Below, one piece after another: positions 2,747 to 12,794 of a stretch of DNA of 64,000 nt. The position numbers and the translations under genes are program-made. Location: the NCBI GenBank assembly GCA_014896315.1, contig JADBKP010000006.1, positions 186,001-250,000 on the forward strand, written 5' to 3'. The notes below the pieces were generated by a model. The model did not search any database. It was not told where the DNA came from and saw only the letters and a program-made list of their open reading frames with translations. The DNA is from Limnochordales bacterium (GTDB lineage: Bacteria > Bacillota > Limnochordia > Limnochordales > DUMU01). Each line of letters begins with the position of its first letter. Positions within the stretch are counted from its first letter, which is position 1.

Positions 2747-2828
2747 ACTGGCAGGTAATCACAGAACGCCGGCGCCTGGAACGAAGACTTTTTGATCTTT
2801 CCTCATTAGATAACTGGAGGCTGTGAGA

Positions 2829-3995
2829 GTGAAGGTAGCAGAACGTATCCAAGCCATCCCTCCCTACCTCTTCGCCCAGATCGACCGGAAGATCGCCGAA
2901 GCCAAAGCCGCGGGTGTGGATGTGATCAGTTTCGGTATCGGCGACCCCGACCGGCCAACCCCCGCGCACATCGTGGCCGAACTGGCGCGGGCGGCGGAGG
3001 ATCCGGCAAACCATCGCTATCCCTCTTACGAAGGACTACCGGCCTTCCGCCGGGCGGTAGCAGACTGGTATGCGCGGCGTTTCGGTGTCACCCTCGATCC
3101 GGATCGTGAGGTGATATCCCTGATCGGATCAAAAGAGGGAATAGCCCATATCTCCCTCTGTTACGTTGACCCGGGTGACATCAACCTTGTACCTGATCCC
3201 GGATATCCCGTTTATGCTCTAGGTACGATCTTTGCAGGCGGAGAGCCTTACAAGATCCCGTTGCGGGCTGAGAAGGGCTTTCTGCCGGATTTTTCTGCTA
3301 TACCGAGCGATGTAGCACGCCGTGCTAAGCTCCTCTTTTTGAACTATCCCAACAATCCGACCGGTGCGGTAGCCGACTTGAAGTTCTTCACTGAAGCAGT
3401 CGAGTTTGCCCGCCAGTATGACCTGGTGATCTGTCACGACGCTGCCTACACGGAAATAGCCTTTGACGGCTACCAGCCGCCCAGCTTCCTGCAGGCGCCG
3501 GGAGCCAGAGAAGTGGGGATTGAGTTTCATTCCCTTTCGAAGACCTATAACATGACCGGATGGCGTCTGGGGTGGGCGTGCGGCAATTCGGAAGTCATAG
3601 AGGCTCTGGGACGCCTGAAGACCAACATTGACTCCGGTGTTTTCCAGGCAATACAGTACGCCGGAATTGCCGCTCTGCAAGGTCCTGATGAGCCCGTTCG
3701 CACTATGTGCCGCGTCTACCAGGAGCGGCGTGACGTTTTGGTCCAGGGCCTGCGTGACCTTGGATGCCCGGTTGCGCCGCCTAAGGCTACCATCTACGTC
3801 TGGGCACCGGTGCCGGCAGGTCACACATCCACCTCCTTTACGGAACTGTTACTGGAACGGACTGGAATCGTGGTAACGCCGGGTATAGGTTATGGAGAAG
3901 GCGGCGAGGGGTTCGTCCGCTTCTCCCTTTGCCTGGAAGTAGAGCGGATCAAGACAGCAGTGGAGCGTATGCGGCGGGCCGGCATACGTTGGTAG
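2829..3995 (+). CDS. dapL: LL-diaminopimelate aminotransferase DapL
   Basis: This is a fold-type I PLP aminotransferase of 388 residues. It begins with an [12 protein letters not shown] segment and has [20 protein letters not shown] and the PLP-lysine motif [12 protein letters not shown]. These are typical of the DapL family, which converts tetrahydrodipicolinate directly to LL-DAP using glutamate. The position next to dapF supports this over a general aspartate aminotransferase. GTG 2829 sits 8 nt after GGAGG (2816-2820). The in-frame GTG at 2823 is only 2 nt from that site and so is less likely. DapL plus DapF gives the short aminotransferase route to meso-DAP. Confidence 0.88.
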
Positions 3996-4005
3996 AAACC
4001 GGGTA

Positions 4006-4036
4006 AAGCGGGGTCGGGTTTTTCCCGGCCCCGCTT
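4006..4036 (+). terminator. GC-rich hairpin after dapL, possible terminator
   Basis: A 13-bp stem with one G-T pair (4006-4018 with 4024-4036) closes a loop of five T. There is no T-run after it, so it is not a classic intrinsic terminator. It lies 10 nt after the dapL stop and touches the -35 of the trp promoter. Confidence 0.45.
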
Positions 4037-4065
4037 GACTTATGCGCGGAGATTGGGTGTATAAT
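4035..4065 (+). promoter_or_regulatory. Predicted sigma-A promoter of the trp operon
   Basis: TTGACT (4035-4040) and a perfect TATAAT (4060-4065) are separated by 19 nt. Transcription should begin near 4072, which places the start a few bases before a small hairpin and the TRAP-type repeats. This leaves a leader of about 230 nt before trpE. Confidence 0.7.
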
Positions 4066-4075
4066 GCAGGCAACA

Positions 4076-4093
4076 GCCCGCCAGGCCGCGGGT
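4076..4093 (+). promoter_or_regulatory. 5' stem-loop of the trp leader
   Basis: CCCGC (4077-4081) pairs with GCGGG (4088-4092) around a 6-nt loop, and a G-T pair can extend the stem. It begins about 4 nt from the predicted transcript end and finishes 2 nt before the first GAG repeat. The B. subtilis trp leader has a 5' stem-loop in the same place that helps TRAP binding. The equivalence is inferred from position only. Confidence 0.5.
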
Positions 4094-4094
4094 C

Positions 4095-4146
4095 GAGTTG
4101 AGATGAGTGGAGCTTAGTTTAGCGGAGTCGAGATAGCAGAGCCGAG
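4095..4146 (+). promoter_or_regulatory. TRAP (MtrB) binding site: eleven GAG/TAG repeats
   Basis: Eleven NAG triplets lie in a row: GAG at 4095, 4100, 4105 and 4110; TAG at 4115 and 4120; GAG at 4125 and 4130; TAG at 4134; GAG at 4139 and 4144. All spacers are 2 nt except a single 1-nt spacer before the ninth. TRAP is an 11-subunit ring that, when loaded with tryptophan, wraps RNA made of 11 (G/U)AG triplets spaced by 2-3 nt. Count, spacing and position just downstream of the trp promoter all fit. The mtrB gene is not in this window. Confidence 0.9.
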
Positions 4147-4184
4147 GCGCTGACCACTCCCGGCGGCCGACTTTTTCCTGCTTT

Positions 4185-4294
4185 CTCCTCCTGCAGGGCA
4201 CAGACGACGAAAAAGCCAACCGAAGCGGCTCGTCGTATCCATGAGTGTTCTGGCCACTCCTCTCTTCCGACCACACGGTCAGGGCGGGAGGAGG
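4185..4294 (+). promoter_or_regulatory. Possible Shine-Dalgarno sequestering structure for trpE
   Basis: CTCCTCCTGC (4185-4194) can pair over 10 bp, with one T-G pair, with GCGGGAGGAG (4284-4293), which contains the trpE ribosome site. Between them a hairpin (4204-4209 with 4231-4236, plus 4214-4217 with 4227-4230) would bring the arms together. The segment 4105-4110 inside the repeats can pair with 4154-4159, so the repeat region has alternative partners when TRAP is absent. B. subtilis uses TRAP-dependent blocking of the trpE ribosome site as one control layer. The same logic here is inference. Confidence 0.55.
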
Positions 4295-4302
4295 TGCGGC
4301 CC

Positions 4303-5865
4303 GTGCAGTTTCGTTTCCTTCCCCCACGTGAAGAGTACCTCAAGCAAGCCTGCTCCGGCGCAAGAGTTCCCATCGCCGTAGAAACGCTGGCGGACCTGGA
4401 GACGCCGGTCTCCCTGTACCTAAAATTGAGAGCTATGACCGGGCCCACATGCCGGGGAAACAAGGCGACATTTCTCCTTGAGAGTGTCTCGCTTCATGGG
4501 GAGACCGGACGCCACTCCTTCCTCGGTGCAGCTCAACAGTTCATCGAAGTGTCTGGCCATCGTCTCTTGAGGTGGCGTAGCGGTCAGATAGTGGAGAGCC
4601 TGGCCTCCTTTCCGCCCTGGGAGGCGTTGCGCCGGTCGATCCTGTCCGAAAGGGTGGCCAGCATCTCCGGCATGCCTCCGTTCATCGGAGGTGCTGTCGG
4701 CTATTTCTCCTACGATGCTGTACGCTACATTGAAAAGATTCCGACTCTTGCCCGGGTCGAACAGCATGTACCCGAGATCCTGCTGATGCTGGCCGATACC
4801 GTCCTGGCCTTCGACCACTTCCGGCGAACGCTCCTGGCCGTTGCTGCGCCCGTGGTCGACCAGGATGCGGGCCGGGTCTACGACGGGACTGTCGCGCAGC
4901 TGACTGATCTTCTGCAGCAATTACTGACGGCGCCCCTGGTCGGGCCGGAGGCTCCACCCTCAGAACCAGAGCCCTCGGCTGCGGGGGATGAAGCGATCGG
5001 CTGGCAGTCGAATCTCAGCGAAGAGGAGTTCTGTCGCGCCGTAGAGACCGCCCAACGCTACATCAGAGAGGGAGAGATCTTCCAGGTAGTACTTTCGCAA
5101 CGTTTTGAATGGGCAGGATCAGCTCCCGACAGCCTCGCCTTCTATCGGGCGTTGCGCCAGCGCAACCCCTCGCCGTACCTCTTTCACCTTGACTTTGGCG
5201 ACTTCCAGGTCGTCGGCTCCTCGCCCGAGGTGATGGTCCGGCTGCGGGGCCGACTGGCCGAACTCCGGCCGATCGCAGGCACTCGCCCCCGCGGGCTAAC
5301 ACCGGAAGAAGACCGGCGCCTCGAAGCGGAGCTCCTCGCCGATCCCAAGGAGCGTGCCGAGCACGTCATGCTTGTCGATCTCGGCCGCAACGACCTGGGA
5401 AAGGTCTGCCGTTACGGCAGTGTCCGCGTTCCCGAGCAGATGGTAGTGGAGCGGTACTCGCACGTATCCCACATTGTCTCCCTGGTCCAGGGTGAACTCC
5501 TGCCAGACCGGGATGCGATCGACCTCTTCTGTGCCACCTTTCCGGCCGGAACGGTCACCGGCGCTCCGAAGATACGGGCCATGGAGATCATTGAGATGCT
5601 CGAGCCTGTCAGGCGGGGGGTTTACGCCGGAGCGGTCGGGTACATCGGATTTGACGGAAACATGGACACCTGTATCGCCATCCGGACCGGGGTCTTTTAT
5701 TCGGGCCGCCTTTTCGTTCAGACCGGAGCCGGGATCGTCTACGACTCCGTACCGGAAAGAGAGTACCGGGAGACGCTGCAGAAGGCGGCCGCCCTGCTGG
5801 ACACCGTGCGGGAGTTGCACAGGCAGCGGAGGGGAGTGGGAGTCCATGCGTCTGCTGGTGATTGA
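4303..5865 (+). CDS. trpE: Anthranilate synthase component I TrpE
   Basis: TrpE is the chorismate-binding subunit of anthranilate synthase and makes anthranilate with ammonia delivered by TrpG. It is 520 residues long. The C-terminal chorismate-binding domain shows IAGTRPRG, DLGRNDLGKV, TFPAGTVTGAPK and the late QTGAGIVYDS motif. The N-terminal region has the PFIGGAVGYFSYD segment of the family. GTG 4303 lies 8 nt after the GGGAGGAGG site (4286-4294). An in-frame GTG at 4294 overlaps that site and is rejected. It is the first gene of the operon and the likely target of the TRAP-type leader. It overlaps trpG by 20 nt. Confidence 0.96.
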   Translation: MQFRFLPPREEYLKQACSGARVPIAVETLADLETPVSLYLKLRAMTGPTCRGNKATFLLESVSLHGETGRHSFLGAAQQFIEVSGHRLLRWRSGQIVESLASFPPWEALRRSILSERVASISGMPPFIGGAVGYFSYDAVRYIEKIPTLARVEQHVPEILLMLADTVLAFDHFRRTLLAVAAPVVDQDAGRVYDGTVAQLTDLLQQLLTAPLVGPEAPPSEPEPSAAGDEAIGWQSNLSEEEFCRAVETAQRYIREGEIFQVVLSQRFEWAGSAPDSLAFYRALRQRNPSPYLFHLDFGDFQVVGSSPEVMVRLRGRLAELRPIAGTRPRGLTPEEDRRLEAELLADPKERAEHVMLVDLGRNDLGKVCRYGSVRVPEQMVVERYSHVSHIVSLVQGELLPDRDAIDLFCATFPAGTVTGAPKIRAMEIIEMLEPVRRGVYAGAVGYIGFDGNMDTCIAIRTGVFYSGRLFVQTGAGIVYDSVPEREYRETLQKAAALLDTVRELHRQRRGVGVHASAGD

Positions 5866-6445
5866 TAACTATGATTCTTTCACATACAACCTGGTCCAGC
5901 TCTTTGGCCTGCTGGGAGCTGAATTGCTGGTCTTCCGGAACGACGAGATAGACGTCGGTGGGATCACTGCCTTGCGTCCCGACGCGCTGGTGATATCCCC
6001 GGGTCCGGGACGACCGGAAGGGGCGGGCGTGACGCTGCCGGCCATCCGTTCACTGGCTGGCAAGTACCCGATCCTGGGGGTCTGCCTCGGACTGCAGGCG
6101 GTTGCCGTCGCCTTTGGTGGCCGTGTGGGAGCAGCGCGAACGCCCATGCACGGCAAGGTGTCCCGGATTCGCCACGACGGGCGAGGGCTGTTCCAGGGGC
6201 TGCCACCGGAGATCGAAGCGACCCGTTATCACTCTTTAGTTGCCATCCGGGAGGAGCTGCCGCCCGAGCTGGTCATCACCGCCGAAGCTGAAGACGGAGA
6301 GATCATGGGCTTGCGACACCGAACGCTGCCCATCGAGACGGTCCAGTTTCACCCCGAGTCGATCCTAACCCCTACGGGCAAACAGATCCTTGCCAACTTC
6401 CTGCACCTGGCCGAGGAGTACCGGAAGGAGGCGCTGACAGCATGA
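5846..6445 (+). CDS. trpG: Anthranilate synthase glutaminase component TrpG
   Basis: This is a class I glutamine amidotransferase that frees ammonia from glutamine for TrpE. The start MRLLVIDNYDSFTYNL is diagnostic of TrpG/PabA. The nucleophile Cys is in GVCLGLQAVA, and the catalytic His-Glu pair is in FHPESI near the C terminus. It is 199 residues, the normal size. The ATG at 5846 falls inside the end of trpE, so translation is probably coupled. Because pabA is often absent in Firmicutes that use TRAP, the subunit may also serve folate synthesis; that is inference. Confidence 0.95.
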   Translation: MRLLVIDNYDSFTYNLVQLFGLLGAELLVFRNDEIDVGGITALRPDALVISPGPGRPEGAGVTLPAIRSLAGKYPILGVCLGLQAVAVAFGGRVGAARTPMHGKVSRIRHDGRGLFQGLPPEIEATRYHSLVAIREELPPELVITAEAEDGEIMGLRHRTLPIETVQFHPESILTPTGKQILANFLHLAEEYRKEALTA

Positions 6446-7578
6446 GCAGCAGTGCCAACAGCACAAGTAGCCTGGCCGGCATGAGCAATCCACCCCCCGC
6501 AAGCAAGGTAATGGAGGCAATCGCCAGCATCAGCCGGGGCGAATCCTTGAGCGAGGAAGCAGCGGCCCAGGCCATGGAAGAAGTGATGACCGGTGCGGCC
6601 ACGCCGGCGCAGATTGCTGCCTTCATCACCGCTTTGCGTCTCAAGGGGGAGACGGTGGATGAGCTTGCGGGCGCTGCGCGCAGCATGCGTGCCGCCGCCC
6701 ATCACATTCATCCGCGCGTTGCTCCGCTGGTAGACACTTGTGGTACCGGAGGGGATGGAGCCCGCACTTTCAATATCTCGACCGCGGCAGCTCTGGTGGT
6801 GGCGGGGACGGGAGTGGCCGTAGCCAAACACGGCAACCGAGCCGTCTCCAGTGCCGCGGGCAGCGCGGATGTGCTGGAAGCGCTCGGGGTGGTCGTTGAG
6901 CTGCCTCCTTCGGACGTGGAACGGTGCATCGAAGAGGTGGGAATCGGTTTCCTCTTTGCGCCGGTCTTCCATCCCGCCATGCGCTTTGCGGCCGGTCCGC
7001 GGCGGGAGATAGGGATTCGCACCATCTTCAACCTTCTTGGTCCGCTGACCAATCCTGCCCAGGCCCAGGCGCAAGTTGTGGGCGTCTTTGCACCATGCTG
7101 GGTTGAGCCGTTGGCCCACGTCCTCTCCCGCCTGGGCGTCCGGGAGGCGCTGGTGGTTCATGGGGAAGCAGATGGGATCGACGAGCTGTCGCTGAGCGGT
7201 CCCTCTCTTGTCGCCCGCCTCCACCATGGAAGGGTGGAGGTAGGTCGCATCACCCCCGAAGAGGTGGGCCTTGCGCGGCGTCCGCTGGCCGACATCGTCG
7301 GAGGTGACGCACGGGAGAACGCCCGCATCATCCGCCGGGTGCTGGGCGGGGAGCCCGGGCCGGCCCGGGATGTGGTCTTGCTCAATGCCGGTGCCGCCCT
7401 GCTTGTCGCCGGGAAGGCCGCCGATCTTGCTGAAGGAATACGGCTGGCCGCGGAGAGTATCGACTCCGGAGCCGCCCTCGCCCGCCTGGAGCATCTGATC
7501 CTGTTTACCCGGGCGGCCCGGGAACGCCATGCATCCACGGTCCGAGCGGCAAACCGCACGCAGGAGGCGGCAGGCTGA
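6442..7578 (+). CDS. trpD: Anthranilate phosphoribosyltransferase TrpD
   Basis: TrpD joins anthranilate to PRPP, giving phosphoribosylanthranilate. The PRPP-binding loop CGTGGDGARTFNIS, the KHGNRAVSS motif and FLFAPVFHPAM are all present. At 378 residues it exceeds the usual 335-345. About 20 extra residues lie at the N terminus (a Ser/Asn-rich lead-in before SKVMEAIASI), so an internal ATG at 6481 is a second possible start. The ATG at 6442 overlaps the trpG stop by 4 nt (ATGA), which favours it. Confidence 0.95.
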   Translation: MSSSANSTSSLAGMSNPPPASKVMEAIASISRGESLSEEAAAQAMEEVMTGAATPAQIAAFITALRLKGETVDELAGAARSMRAAAHHIHPRVAPLVDTCGTGGDGARTFNISTAAALVVAGTGVAVAKHGNRAVSSAAGSADVLEALGVVVELPPSDVERCIEEVGIGFLFAPVFHPAMRFAAGPRREIGIRTIFNLLGPLTNPAQAQAQVVGVFAPCWVEPLAHVLSRLGVREALVVHGEADGIDELSLSGPSLVARLHHGRVEVGRITPEEVGLARRPLADIVGGDARENARIIRRVLGGEPGPARDVVLLNAGAALLVAGKAADLAEGIRLAAESIDSGAALARLEHLILFTRAARERHASTVRAANRTQEAAG

Positions 7579-8384
7579 TGGGGCTGCTTGAGTCAATTCT
7601 GGCCGCCCGTCGCCAGCAGACTGAAGCCGCCAGGCGGGTTCTCCCCCTTGTCGAACTGAAAGCCCGGGTGGCCGATCTGCCCCCGCGCCGGGCAGGAAGG
7701 TTTGTGGCAGCGATAAGGGCCGCTTCCGCGCCGGAGCAGGGGCGCGTCGCAGTAATAGCCGAGCTCAAACGGTACTCGCCATCCGCCGGCCCGATTCGAC
7801 CCGACCTCGACCTTGTGGCCATGACTCGGATCTTTGAGGCGGGAGGGGCGGCAGCCCTATCCGTTCTGACAGAGCAGCACTACTTCGGGGGCAACCCACG
7901 AGATCTGGAACTGGTTCGACAGGTTACCGAACGGCCACTTCTGTGCAAGGACTTTCTCGTTGAGCCCTATACCGTCTACGAAGCGCGCCTGCGGGGAGCC
8001 GATGCCGTCTTACTCATCACCCGCCTGCTCTCAGCGCAACAGCTTGTGGATCTCCTCGGTCTTGCCCACGATCTTGGCCTGGATGCGCTGGTTGAGATCC
8101 ATGGCCCTGACGAATTGCCCCTGGCCCTGGCAAGCGGCGCCGAACTGATAGGCATCAACAACCGGGACCTCGATAGCCTGCGCATCGACCTGAGCAGAGT
8201 ACGGGAGCTTGCCCCGCTCGTTCCTGGTGACCGGGTAGTAATCGCGGAGAGCGGCTACAAGCACCCGGCCGACGTTGCCGGCCTCGCGAAGCTGGGCGTA
8301 CGGGCCGTGCTGGTCGGCGAATCCGTCCTTCGGGCCACGGATCCGGCCCTTCACCTGCGCCAACTGGCAGCGGCTGCCGGTTGA
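7578..8384 (+). CDS. trpC: Indole-3-glycerol phosphate synthase TrpC
   Basis: TrpC closes the indole ring of carboxyphenylamino-deoxyribulose phosphate. The TIM-barrel signatures are clear: VIAELKRYSPSAG with the catalytic lysine, LCKDFLVEPYTVYEA, LIGINNRDLDSL and VIAESGY. It is 268 residues, the normal size for a monofunctional enzyme. The start ATG shares a base with the trpD stop (TGATG), so translation is coupled. It has no fused TrpF domain; trpF follows as a separate gene. Confidence 0.96.
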   Translation: MGLLESILAARRQQTEAARRVLPLVELKARVADLPPRRAGRFVAAIRAASAPEQGRVAVIAELKRYSPSAGPIRPDLDLVAMTRIFEAGGAAALSVLTEQHYFGGNPRDLELVRQVTERPLLCKDFLVEPYTVYEARLRGADAVLLITRLLSAQQLVDLLGLAHDLGLDALVEIHGPDELPLALASGAELIGINNRDLDSLRIDLSRVRELAPLVPGDRVVIAESGYKHPADVAGLAKLGVRAVLVGESVLRATDPALHLRQLAAAAG

Positions 8385-8469: not shown

Positions 8470-9255
8470 ATGGACACGAGCCGAGACGCAGATCCAACCC
8501 TCCCGGCCATCGCCCGCTGGGAAGCCTTCTGCTACCGTTCCAACCGGCGCCCGGGAGTGAAAATCTGCGGACTTCGCGATGAGGAGACGCTGCTTTTCAC
8601 CGCCCAGGCAGGAGCGGACGCGGTAGGCCTGGTCTTCTATCCGCTCAGTCGCAGGTTTGTCTCCTTGGAAGAAGCCCGCCGGCTGGTGAACGGTCTGCGT
8701 CGCGGGCTGCCGCCAAAAGTGCAGCCGCTGGTGGCCGGGCTCTTTGTCCGGGCGCCGGTGGAGGAGGTCGTCCGTTACGCAGGCGAACTGGGGCTTGATC
8801 TGGTACAGCTGCAGGGAGATGAAGACCCATCATATCTGGAGCAGTTGCGGCAACGGTTGGAGGCAGAAGGCTTAATGACCCGGGTGCTGCTGGCGCTGGC
8901 TTGCGTGGACGCCACCGAAGCCGTGACCCGGCTGCCCCGTCTGGCCCGCGAGCTCGCCGCGCACGGCCTTATCGATGCGCTGATGGTGGACCGCCGGGGA
9001 ACGCTTCCCGGTGGCAACGGCCTTCCACTTGAGTGGAGTCGACTCGCAGCCCTGGCGGCAGGCAGGCGCACTGGAGAGCTCCCGCTCCCGTGGGGGCTGG
9101 CGGGGGGGCTTGATCCCCGGAGCGTGGAGGCGGCCTGCCGACAGGCGGAGCCGGATTTTGTCGATGTCTCTTCCGGGGTGGAAAAAGATGGTCGCAAGGA
9201 TGGCAACTTGATCCGTGAATTCATCATGGCAGTACGCAAGGTTGGGGCGATTTGA
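8470..9255 (+). CDS. trpF: Phosphoribosylanthranilate isomerase TrpF
   Basis: TrpF isomerises phosphoribosylanthranilate. The barrel start is VKICGLRDEE with the catalytic Cys, then AGADAVGLVFYPLSRR, LVQLQGDE, LAGGLDPRSV and VDVSSGVEKDGRKD. The protein is 261 residues against the usual 200-210. About 28 residues precede the first strand, and there is extra sequence around residues 150-200. ATG 8470 follows an AGGAGG-like site (AAGGAGGAGATAGCT). An 85-nt gap separates it from trpC, the only real gap in the operon besides the one before trpB. Confidence 0.93.
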   Translation: MDTSRDADPTLPAIARWEAFCYRSNRRPGVKICGLRDEETLLFTAQAGADAVGLVFYPLSRRFVSLEEARRLVNGLRRGLPPKVQPLVAGLFVRAPVEEVVRYAGELGLDLVQLQGDEDPSYLEQLRQRLEAEGLMTRVLLALACVDATEAVTRLPRLARELAAHGLIDALMVDRRGTLPGGNGLPLEWSRLAALAAGRRTGELPLPWGLAGGLDPRSVEAACRQAEPDFVDVSSGVEKDGRKDGNLIREFIMAVRKVGAI

Positions 9256-9309: not shown

Positions 9310-10521
9310 ATGGCCGCCTACACCCTCCCCGATCAGAGGGGGCACTTTGGAGAGTTCGGCGGACGCTTTGTCCCAGAAACCCTGATGCCGGCCCTGGAGG
9401 AACTCTCCTGGGCCTACGAGGAGGCCCGTCGTGATCCTCAGTTTCTGGCCGAATACGATGCGTTGCTCAGAGAGTACGTGGGCCGCCCGACACCGCTGAC
9501 ATACGCAGCCAATCTCAGCGCTCACTACGGCTTCAGCATCTATCTCAAGCGGGAAGATCTCTGCCATACGGGAGCCCACAAAATCAACAACGCGCTGGGG
9601 CAGGTGCTTCTCGCCAAACGCCTTGGCAAACGGCGTGTCATTGCCGAGACCGGCGCCGGTCAACACGGAGTGGCCACCGCTACCGCTTGTGCCCTGCTCG
9701 GTCTGGAGTGCCAGATCTACATGGGCGAAGAGGATATGCGGCGCCAGCAACTCAACGTATTCCGCATGAAGCTCCTGGGAGCGCAGGTGATCCCGGTGGT
9801 GACGGGGAGCCGTACCCTCAAAGATGCCTGCAACGAAGCGATCCGGCAGTGGGTGACGTCGGTGCGGGATACACACTACGTGATCGGTTCGGTCGTCGGG
9901 CCCGACCCCTATCCCCGCATGGTGCGGGATTTCCAGTCAGTCATCGGCCGGGAAGCACGGGAGCAGATCCTCAAAGCCACCGGCCGCCTTCCCGACGTCT
10001 GCCTGGCGTGCGTAGGCGGCGGTTCAAACAGCATGGGGCTTTTTTATCCCTTCATCGAGGATACCACAGTCCGTCTCATCGGGGTGGAGGCTGCCGGCAA
10101 GGGTATTGCCTCCGGTGAACATGCTGCTAGCCTTACCGCAGGCCGCCCGGGAGTGCTGCACGGCGCCTTCTCGTTCCTGCTACAAGATGATGAAGGTCAG
10201 GTGCTCCCCGCTTACTCGATCTCTGCCGGGCTGGATTACCCGGGGGTCGGTCCTGAACACTCTTACCTGCGCAGCATCGGCCGGGCCGAGTATGTGGCAG
10301 TGACCGACGACGAAGCACTGTCTGCCGTCGCGCGGCTATGCCGCAGCGAAGGTATCCTGCCGGCTCTGGAAAGCGCCCACGCCCTTGCCTATCTCGAACA
10401 CTTAAAGCTACCTGCGGAAGCAAGTGTGGTGGTCTGTCTGTCGGGACGGGGAGACAAGGACGTGGAGATTCTCCAAAGGCATCTCCGATTGTGGGAGCAA
10501 GAGGGGAGTGAGCGGGAATGA
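9310..10521 (+). CDS. trpB: Tryptophan synthase beta chain TrpB
   Basis: TrpB condenses indole with serine in a PLP-dependent reaction. The PLP lysine is in [13 protein letters not shown], the phosphate-binding loop is GGGSNSMG, and [15 protein letters not shown] and the late [12 protein letters not shown] segment are conserved. It is 403 residues and begins [22 protein letters not shown], the typical TrpB1 N terminus that pairs with TrpA. It overlaps trpA by 4 nt (ATGA). Confidence 0.97.
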
Positions 10522-11375
10522 GCCGTTTCGAAGCCATGTTCTCCCGCCTGCAGGTGCGCGCCGAGAAGGCACTCATCGGATATCTGACAGTCGGTGATCC
10601 CGGCCTGGTGGAATCAGAGGCACGTTGTGAGACGGCTCTGGCCGCGGGGGTTGACGCTCTGGAACTCGGGATCCCTTACTCCGATCCTCTCGCCGATGGG
10701 CCGGTCATCCAGGCTGCCGGGCAGCGTGCTCTGGCGGCAGGCTTCCGGTTGGAGTGGCTGTGGCAAATCCTCCGCCATTTGCGGGAACGCCACCCCGATA
10801 CCCCGCTGGCCATCATGACCTACGTAAACCCTGTGCTGCAGGTGGGGATGGAGAAGTTCGTCTCCCGAGCGGCGGCGGAAGGGGCGGATGCGCTGATAGT
10901 CCCCGATCTGCCGCCAGAGGAGGAGAAACCGCTACTCTCCGTCTGCCGCAACCTGGGACTGGATCTGATACCGTTTGTGGCGCCGACCACCCCCCTTGCC
11001 CGGATGCGGGAGGTACTGCCGGGACATAGCGGGTTTGTCTACTGTGTGTCGATTACCGGGGTGACTGGTACACAACTGGACGGTCGGGTATCGGAGGCGG
11101 AGAGCCGGCCCATCGATGAACTCCTGGCGCAGGCCCGGGCTGTGAGTGGCCTGCCGGTTAGCCTTGGCTTTGGCATTTACAGCGCCGCTGACATCCGTCG
11201 GTTCGGCCGCGAAGCAGACGGCGTGATCGTCGGCTCGGCCCTGGTCCGCATCCGGAGCACAGCAGAACTCGGGGAGTTCGTCCGTTCATTGAAAGAAGCA
11301 ACCCGTGCAGACTCCCAGCAAAAGCGAGTGGGGAGGGGAAGGGGGGAGGAAACCGCTGCTGTGATACAATCGTAA
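10518..11375 (+). CDS. trpA: Tryptophan synthase alpha chain TrpA
   Basis: TrpA cleaves indole-3-glycerol phosphate and channels indole to TrpB. Catalytic Glu is in [16 protein letters not shown] and catalytic Asp in [24 protein letters not shown] and [10 protein letters not shown] complete the barrel. It has 285 residues, with a C-terminal tail of about 20 that is basic and not conserved. It ends the classical pathway genes. The next gene starts 18 nt later and is likely in the same transcript. Confidence 0.96.
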
Positions 11376-11393: not shown

Positions 11394-12794
11394 GTGTCAG
11401 ATCAGGGCATTTGCCGTTCGAGTGGCAGCAGCAACTGGTGGGATGAGCCCGTCGGCAAAGAGGCACTGCGGCTGGTGGCAGAAGTGCGCGCCTCGGAACT
11501 GGTGCAGAGGATGTGGGCACAGGTTGACGAAGTGGTCCGCTGGAACCAGATGCGCGTGCTTGCTGCCTTCCAGGCGGCGGGCGTCGCTCAGTACGAGCTG
11601 AACGGCACCACCGGCTATGGGTACAATGACGCGGCACGGGAAGCCGTCGAAAAGGTCTATTCCCACTACTTCCAGACCGAAGCAGCCCTGGTCCGTCCCC
11701 AGATCGTCTCCGGCACCCACGCGCTGGCCTGCGCCCTCTTTGGGCTGCTGCGCCCGGGCGACGAGCTGCTCGCTTTGGGCAGGCCCTACGACACGCTGGC
11801 TGCGGTGATCGGGATCGCCCCCACGGCCGGGGGAGGGGAAGCTCCCGGGAACCTCCGGGAGTTTGGGATCAGCTACCGGGAAGTACCTATGCCCTCGGAG
11901 GAGTGGGAGACCAGTGCTACCGACGCCGGCACCGCGGCAGAAGAGATGGCGCGCAAGGTGGTAGAGGCCGTCGGGCCACGCACGCGTGCTCTCCTGTTGC
12001 AACGCTCCCGCGGGTATGCCGCCCGGCCCTCGCTACCGGTTGCGGCCATAGCCACGATCATCGCTGCTCTTCGCCAGGCGAAGCCTGATGTGATGGTTAT
12101 CGTGGATAACTGCTACGGCGAGTTTGTCGAAACCCGCGAGCCGTCGATGGTAGGGGCCGACCTGGTGGCAGGGTCGCTGATCAAGAATCCGGGAGGCGGT
12201 CTTGCTCCCACCGGGGGATATCTGGTAGGTCGGAAGGATCTCATCGCCAGGGCAGCAGCACGCCTCACCGCCCCGGGGGTGGGAGCCGAGGTCGGGCCGT
12301 ACTTCGGCTTCGCCCGGCCCATTCTCCAGGGCTTCTTTCTTGCACCCCACGTAGTAGGCGAGGCAGTACGCGGGGCGATCCTGGCAGCTGCCTTCTTCAG
12401 CAGGCTTGGGTGGAAAGTATCTCCGCCTGCGGATGCGCCGCGGACAGACATCATCCAGGCCATTCACTTCCCCGCCGCTGAACCTCTGATCCGGGCTGCC
12501 CAGGCCGTGCAGGCAGCAAGTCCCATCGACTCCCACGTCCGGCCCGTTCCTGCACCCATGCCGGGATATGACGACATGGTGATTATGGCCGCGGGGACAT
12601 TTGTGCAGGGCGCTTCTCTGGAGTTGACCGCTGATGCGCCACTGCGACCGCCTTTCACGCTCTACTGGCAGGGAGGGCTGACTCGCGAGCATGTAGAGGT
12701 GGCGTTGGCTCTCATCTACCGTTCACTTGCCAGCCTGCTGGAACCAATGACAATCTCCGCTGGTAGAAGCAAAAGTAGCCCACAAGTGCCTTGA
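11394..12794 (+). CDS. YnbB-like PLP enzyme (aluminium resistance / methionine gamma-lyase family)
   Basis: This is a 466-residue PLP-dependent protein of the family annotated as aluminium-resistance or methionine gamma-lyase-like, with B. subtilis YnbB as a member. Visible marks are AGVAQYELNGTTGYGYND, VRPQIVSGTHALACALFG, VIVDNCYGEFVE and the probable PLP lysine in GSLIKNPGGGLAPTGGY. The true reaction of the family is not settled. YnbB has been linked in B. subtilis to 5-aminopentanol modification of elongation factor P. GTG 11394 follows GGAGG (11380-11384) at 9 nt. Its place right after trpA suggests joint transcription, which is unusual for this family. Confidence 0.8.
   Translation: MSDQGICRSSGSSNWWDEPVGKEALRLVAEVRASELVQRMWAQVDEVVRWNQMRVLAAFQAAGVAQYELNGTTGYGYNDAAREAVEKVYSHYFQTEAALVRPQIVSGTHALACALFGLLRPGDELLALGRPYDTLAAVIGIAPTAGGGEAPGNLREFGISYREVPMPSEEWETSATDAGTAAEEMARKVVEAVGPRTRALLLQRSRGYAARPSLPVAAIATIIAALRQAKPDVMVIVDNCYGEFVETREPSMVGADLVAGSLIKNPGGGLAPTGGYLVGRKDLIARAAARLTAPGVGAEVGPYFGFARPILQGFFLAPHVVGEAVRGAILAAAFFSRLGWKVSPPADAPRTDIIQAIHFPAAEPLIRAAQAVQAASPIDSHVRPVPAPMPGYDDMVIMAAGTFVQGASLELTADAPLRPPFTLYWQGGLTREHVEVALALIYRSLASLLEPMTISAGRSKSSPQVP

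Follow-up and report, generated by a model that had tools for sequence, protein, structure and literature searches.

The leader of the trp operon in the window, the whole 64,000-nt stretch of DNA analysed here, very probably carries a TRAP binding site (positions 4095–4146) through which the tryptophan genes are controlled, judging from the sequence of the site and of the protein. An array of eleven (G/U)AG triplets lies between conserved promoter boxes and trpE, the genome codes for TRAP (mtrB), similar arrays are conserved order-wide, and there is no T-box at the operon. The earlier note had proposed this reading, and the mtrB gene and the conserved arrays now support it, with the binding itself predicted; we infer binding, its dependence on tryptophan, and repression. 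Whether the output is translational or transcriptional is a separate question on which the claim of a TRAP site does not depend. As to the output, we favor translational control by long-range refolding of the leader over transcription attenuation, the main rival, because refolding at the trpE Shine-Dalgarno (SD) sequence is computed in the window's family and no terminator is found in the window leader. Three points count against the overall picture: a 1-nt spacer breaks the register of the array, the TRAP protein has an isoleucine at the F32 position, and the array in one family relative (G320) consists of six triplets. The coordinates of the leader elements and genes are listed in Table 1.

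Table 1. Leader elements and genes of the trp operon in the window.
Feature	Position	Strand	Basis
trp promoter: TTGACT 4035–4040, 19-nt spacer, TATAAT 4060–4065	4035–4065	+	sequence, boxes conserved
5' stem-loop CCCGC-caggcc-GCGGG, adjoining first triplet	4077–4092	+	predicted in nascent leader
TRAP-type array: 11 triplets, 8 GAG and 3 UAG	4095–4146	+	direct reading, chain scoring, order conservation
Predicted anti-Shine-Dalgarno/switch segment GGCCACTCCTCTCTTCC	4252–4268	+	constrained folding, computed
trpE Shine-Dalgarno GGGAGGAGG	4286–4294	+	folding; SD match AGGAGGTG 6 nt before GTG 4303
trpE, anthranilate synthase component I, preferred start GTG 4303	4303–5865	+	TIGR00564, SD placement
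trpG, glutamine amidotransferase, probable start at MRLLVIDNYDSF (~5846)	5846–6445	+	translation within ORF 5474–6445
trpD	6442–7578	+	TIGR01245, 417 bits
trpC	7578–8384	+	NF001377, 261 bits
trpF	8470–9255	+	NF002298, E 9e-40, below cut-off
trpB	9310–10521	+	TIGR00263, 624 bits
trpA	10518–11375	+	TIGR00262, 228 bits

The triplets of the array start at positions 4095, 4100, 4105, 4110, 4115, 4120, 4125, 4130, 4134, 4139 and 4144 and are ordered, 5' to 3', as four GAG, two TAG, two GAG, one TAG and two GAG. Neighbouring triplets are 2 nt apart in nine cases and 1 nt apart in one (A4133), and the count of eleven given in the earlier note can be read directly in the sequence, with the reservation that the ninth triplet depends on the 1-nt spacer; the alternative count is ten triplets and one skipped position. 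TRAP binding sites are defined as about 9–11 (G/U)AG triplets with 2–3-nt spacers (PMC4347634, PMC11255114), and the array has this number of triplets, with all but one of its spacers within that range, as well as the appropriate setting, downstream of a promoter and in the transcript of tryptophan genes. The 2-nt spacing had been singled out as notably tight, but falls within the 2–3 nt usual at TRAP sites (PMC11255114).

Scoring chains of NAG triplets gives 10.1 at the array. The maximum was 4.7 when the 300-nt leader was dinucleotide-shuffled 2000 times, and again 4.7 when the whole 64-kb window was shuffled 40 times, which bears out the initial judgment that a chance origin is very unlikely; the top chain on the opposite strand of the window scores 3.05. 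Across the whole 2.59-Mb genome the array is the sole match to seven DAG triplets at exact 2-nt spacing with at most one mismatch, and also the sole match to five KAG triplets at exact 2-nt spacing, so that a second TRAP target with at least five KAG triplets at this spacing is found nowhere else in the genome. The array could in principle be a chance or compositional repeat, or code for a peptide, and have no regulatory role, and purine-rich short repeats, many of the AAG type, do occur in some TRAP-negative genomes; this reading is extremely improbable, however, given the gap between the array and its shuffles, a 5-nt period that differs from the codon period, and the conservation across the order of the position and triplets, but not of the surrounding sequence.

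This conservation was followed in the 14 genomes of the order, all of which encode TRAP. A trpE match is present in 13 of these, one of which ends at a contig edge, and a triplet array lies upstream of trpE in each of the remaining 12, as the earlier note had anticipated for close relatives. The number of triplets varies, with 11 in the window's own leader, 10 in G335, nine in the genus-mate G314 and in G326, G190 and G323, eight in G329, G317, G288 and G311, and six in G320 and G215. Between and around the triplets, these leaders differ strongly in sequence; that the triplets were kept while their surroundings changed fits the prediction of selection on the triplets.

The array follows the trp promoter directly, as had been claimed, and TTGAC and TACAAT/TATAAT boxes are conserved in the two closest relatives (of the same genus and of the same family), but the promoter is imperfect; its 19-nt spacer is outside the 16–18 nt used in a consensus promoter scan, which is why the scan missed it and the promoter is absent from the scan list. 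Transcription is expected to start near A4072. The CCCGC and GCGGG arms of the predicted 5' stem-loop are likewise present in the leaders L118 and L116, and by analogy it may act in the same way as the 5' stem-loop of B. subtilis. Upstream of the promoter is dapL (2823–3995; TIGR03540 above cut-off), and a GC-rich hairpin, GCGGGGTCGGG-ttttt-CCCGGCCCCGC (4008–4034), which abuts the trp –35 box and is probably the dapL terminator. Downstream of the array the genes are ordered trpEGDCFBA. The trpE product matches TIGR00564 with 508 bits, slightly below the cut-off of 517.7, yet this is its best family, and the trpG start is placed by the N-terminus of the translation. A PLP-enzyme ORF (11394–12794) with weak methionine gamma-lyase-type matches lies directly 3' of trpA.

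A single mtrB gene is present in the genome (C5:76735–76935, in a frame of 85 residues), as the earlier note's reading had implied it should be. In a profile search of the genome its product scores well above the cut-off of PF02081 (126.2 bits; cut-off 21.3) and also above that of the equivalog NF009724 (127.2 bits; cut-off 117), and it matches the crystallised TRAP 1c9s with 98 bits. Residues E36, K37, D39, E42, K56 and R58 (B. subtilis numbering) are all kept, and are invariant columns of the TRAP alignment. These six are reported as the RNA-contact residues of TRAP, and F32 as a residue that stacks against the third base of the triplets (PMC4854314). Phenylalanine at F32 is common in the TRAP family without defining it, and the residue here is isoleucine, with glycine or alanine beside it at the H33 position, as is also the case in the TRAP of the genus-mate and of the Bu26 genome, which belongs to the same family. 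Among 124 TRAP loci the F32 residue is Phe in 118, Ile in four and Leu in two, and the four Ile loci are all from the window's family, with Bu26 counted twice via two loci; the loci that combine Ile at F32 with Gly or Ala at H33 are L001:1450–1707, L208, L203 and L025. A site of eleven triplets is consistent with the eleven-subunit, tryptophan-binding TRAP ring. Anti-TRAP, which the earlier note had named beside mtrB as a gene to look for, has no PF15777 match in the genome assembly (96.8% complete).

TRAP is widespread beyond the order, with mtrB in 46 of the 61 class genomes and in 152 of the 299 sampled across the phylum. The statement that TRAP is reported in few Firmicutes outside Bacillus fails in this sample, and control of trp by TRAP is not confined to Bacillus: about half of the sampled Bacillota genomes, which include Carboxydothermus, Peptococcaceae and relatives in the Limnochordia, carry mtrB, and arrays accompany it. 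We found no report of TRAP in Limnochordia in the literature searched, a search to which the survey of Gutierrez-Preciado et al. (2007) did not belong. A 7-triplet pattern is present in 82 of the 152 phylum genomes that have TRAP and in 19 of the 147 that lack it (Fisher p 2e-14), many of the matches in TRAP-negative genomes being AAG-type low-complexity repeats; the reversed pattern, chosen for comparison, is likewise correlated with TRAP, and is a poor control because GAG reads identically both ways. Some TRAP-positive genomes have triplet arrays at multiple loci (G035, C4 and C9; G119, C13 and C14; G054, C13 and C22; G039, with 10 matches), and their TRAP regulons may extend beyond trp. One genome has two mtrB genes (G020:C7:49982–50182 and G020:C29:85806–86000).

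A further possibility is that the operon is under T-box control by tRNA-Trp, the usual clostridial way, and that the array is secondary. There are ten T-boxes in the genome, and some class members have one before trpE, but none of the ten is at the trp operon (C17:190k), and the window as a whole contains no above-threshold match to any Rfam family, RF00230 upstream of trpE included. At the sensitivity of RF00230, we consider such control exceedingly unlikely here. Leaders of both kinds are combined in three TRAP-positive class members, where an Rfam T-box precedes a triplet array located at, or close to, the start of trpE (L136:1087–1483 on the plus strand, with seven triplets; L142:1100–1442 on the plus strand, with 13; and L130:2958–3290 on the minus strand, with five), which suggests joint control, of transcription by uncharged tRNA-Trp and of translation by TRAP. 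Among mtrB-bearing Bacillales, trpE is preceded by one or two T-boxes in the leaders L162, L163, L166 and L170 (Lysinibacillus, Bacillus infantis and Planococcaceae-type), some of which also carry a shorter triplet array near the start codon. In three TRAP-positive members of family f6 (L131, L134 and L135) a T-box precedes trpE, with no strong array in the leader, and TRAP may have other targets in these genomes. Collectively, the leaders of these genomes, with or without a terminator and with or without a T-box, form an extensive natural series, which could show how the ring protein and the RNA switch co-evolve, and which TRAP output, termination or SD hiding, goes missing more easily.

The preferred account of the output, hiding of the trpE SD, is based on computed folds of the leader. 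When the leader RNA is free, its 5' stem-loop and first triplets are predicted to pair with 4252–4290 and the SD is partly free, whereas with the array masked 4257–4263 is predicted to pair with 4287–4293, and the paired bases among the 16 before the start codon number 16 masked versus 10 free. With the array masked, opening the SD is computed to cost 4.3 kcal/mol more in the window, 5.4 kcal/mol more in G314 and 6.7 kcal/mol more in G320, and shuffles of the RNA between array and SD do as much in 6, 1 and 0 of 50 cases, respectively, so that the switch in the window alone is not individually significant (6/50). Combining the three leaders by Fisher's method (by hand) gives about p = 0.006, for three related leaders out of 17 looked at. 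Masking leaves the minimum-energy pairing of the SD unchanged in L118, and most other order members have smaller SD changes on masking or none; free-RNA folds of this kind ignore co-transcriptional kinetics.

On this model, when tryptophan is plentiful the TRAP ring would wrap the eleven triplets of the trpEGDCFBA leader, 4257–4263 would fold onto 4287–4293, and trpE would not be translated; when TRAP is absent, the first triplets and the 5' stem-loop would instead pair with about 4252–4290, and the trpE SD would be comparatively open. Taken by itself, this SD-hiding step seems rather probable. TRAP could alternatively cover the trpE ribosome-binding site directly, as at B. subtilis trpG and trpP, which is a known TRAP mode (PMC4347634) and for which the class offers RBS-overlapping arrays in L136 and L142; with the array ending at 4146 and the SD beginning at 4286, 140 nt away, the coordinates exclude this unless the RNA folds back, and it is highly improbable here.

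The main rival, in which array-bound TRAP works chiefly through transcription, blocking an antiterminator such that a terminator forms before trpE, is rather unlikely in the window, though it deserves more weight than direct covering of the ribosome-binding site. Attenuation is the main TRAP mechanism in B. subtilis (PMC4027176), where TRAP can also terminate transcription without an intact terminator, according to the literature cited in PMC11255114. In seven relatives (L117, L119, L120, L121, L124, L126 and L139) a strong local hairpin with U's directly after it lies between the array and trpE, and the window has a run of five U's at 4172–4176. However, all seven are outside the window's family, two relatives within it have weak hairpins without a clean U-tract, and no local intrinsic terminator is found in the window leader between the array and trpE, including ahead of the U-run at 4172. 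We also considered a stem enclosing the array, the idea being that RNA wrapped on TRAP brings its ends together and so closes the stem. In the window this terminator-like candidate pairs GGCCGCGGG (4084–4092) with CCCGGCGGCC (4159–4168), followed by GAC-UUUUU, and was rejected, as shuffled 5' flanks equal it in 692 of 1000 cases; corresponding stems in L118, L116 and L127 are equaled by shuffled flanks in 110–327 of 1000 and were also rejected.

Returning to SD hiding, a more speculative and less likely reading is that in the window's family trp control may be purely translational, with a leader that is refolded from 140 nt upstream of the trpE SD and operates without a terminator, anti-TRAP or a T-box, and with a TRAP that lacks the stacking aromatic residue. 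If so, the family would have a minimal, tryptophan-only version of the TRAP circuit, the terminator having been kept in its relatives.

On the sequence criteria by which site and protein are defined, the leader belongs to the TRAP class, but it falls outside the definition of a B. subtilis-type attenuator because no terminator is found. As in the B. subtilis trpEDCFBA leader, eleven (G/U)AG triplets follow the promoter and a possible 5' stem-loop. The two differ in that here no classical terminator is found, all spacers but one (1 nt) are 2 nt long rather than 2–3 nt, trpG is inside the operon, anti-TRAP is not found, and TRAP has Ile at F32; moreover, mtrB is arranged with folE in B. subtilis, and here its neighbours are dnaE on one side and, on the other, a small ORF and then accD (ORFs named by eye). 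The downstream anti-SD segment, predicted here to fold onto the trpE SD once the array is occupied, would have its counterpart in the B. subtilis leader, where hiding of the trpE SD by TRAP-dependent refolding is attributed to Du and Babitzke (1998), as cited in PMC11255114 and PMC4347634. Clostridial trp T-box leaders (RF00230) resemble this one in the tryptophan-responsive control of trpE, but the T-box, absent here, senses uncharged tRNA-Trp and not tryptophan via a protein. The B. subtilis trpG, trpP and ycbK sites are also NAG arrays for the same protein and control translation, as predicted here, but these overlap the ribosome-binding site, whereas the array described here lies ~140 nt upstream of it.
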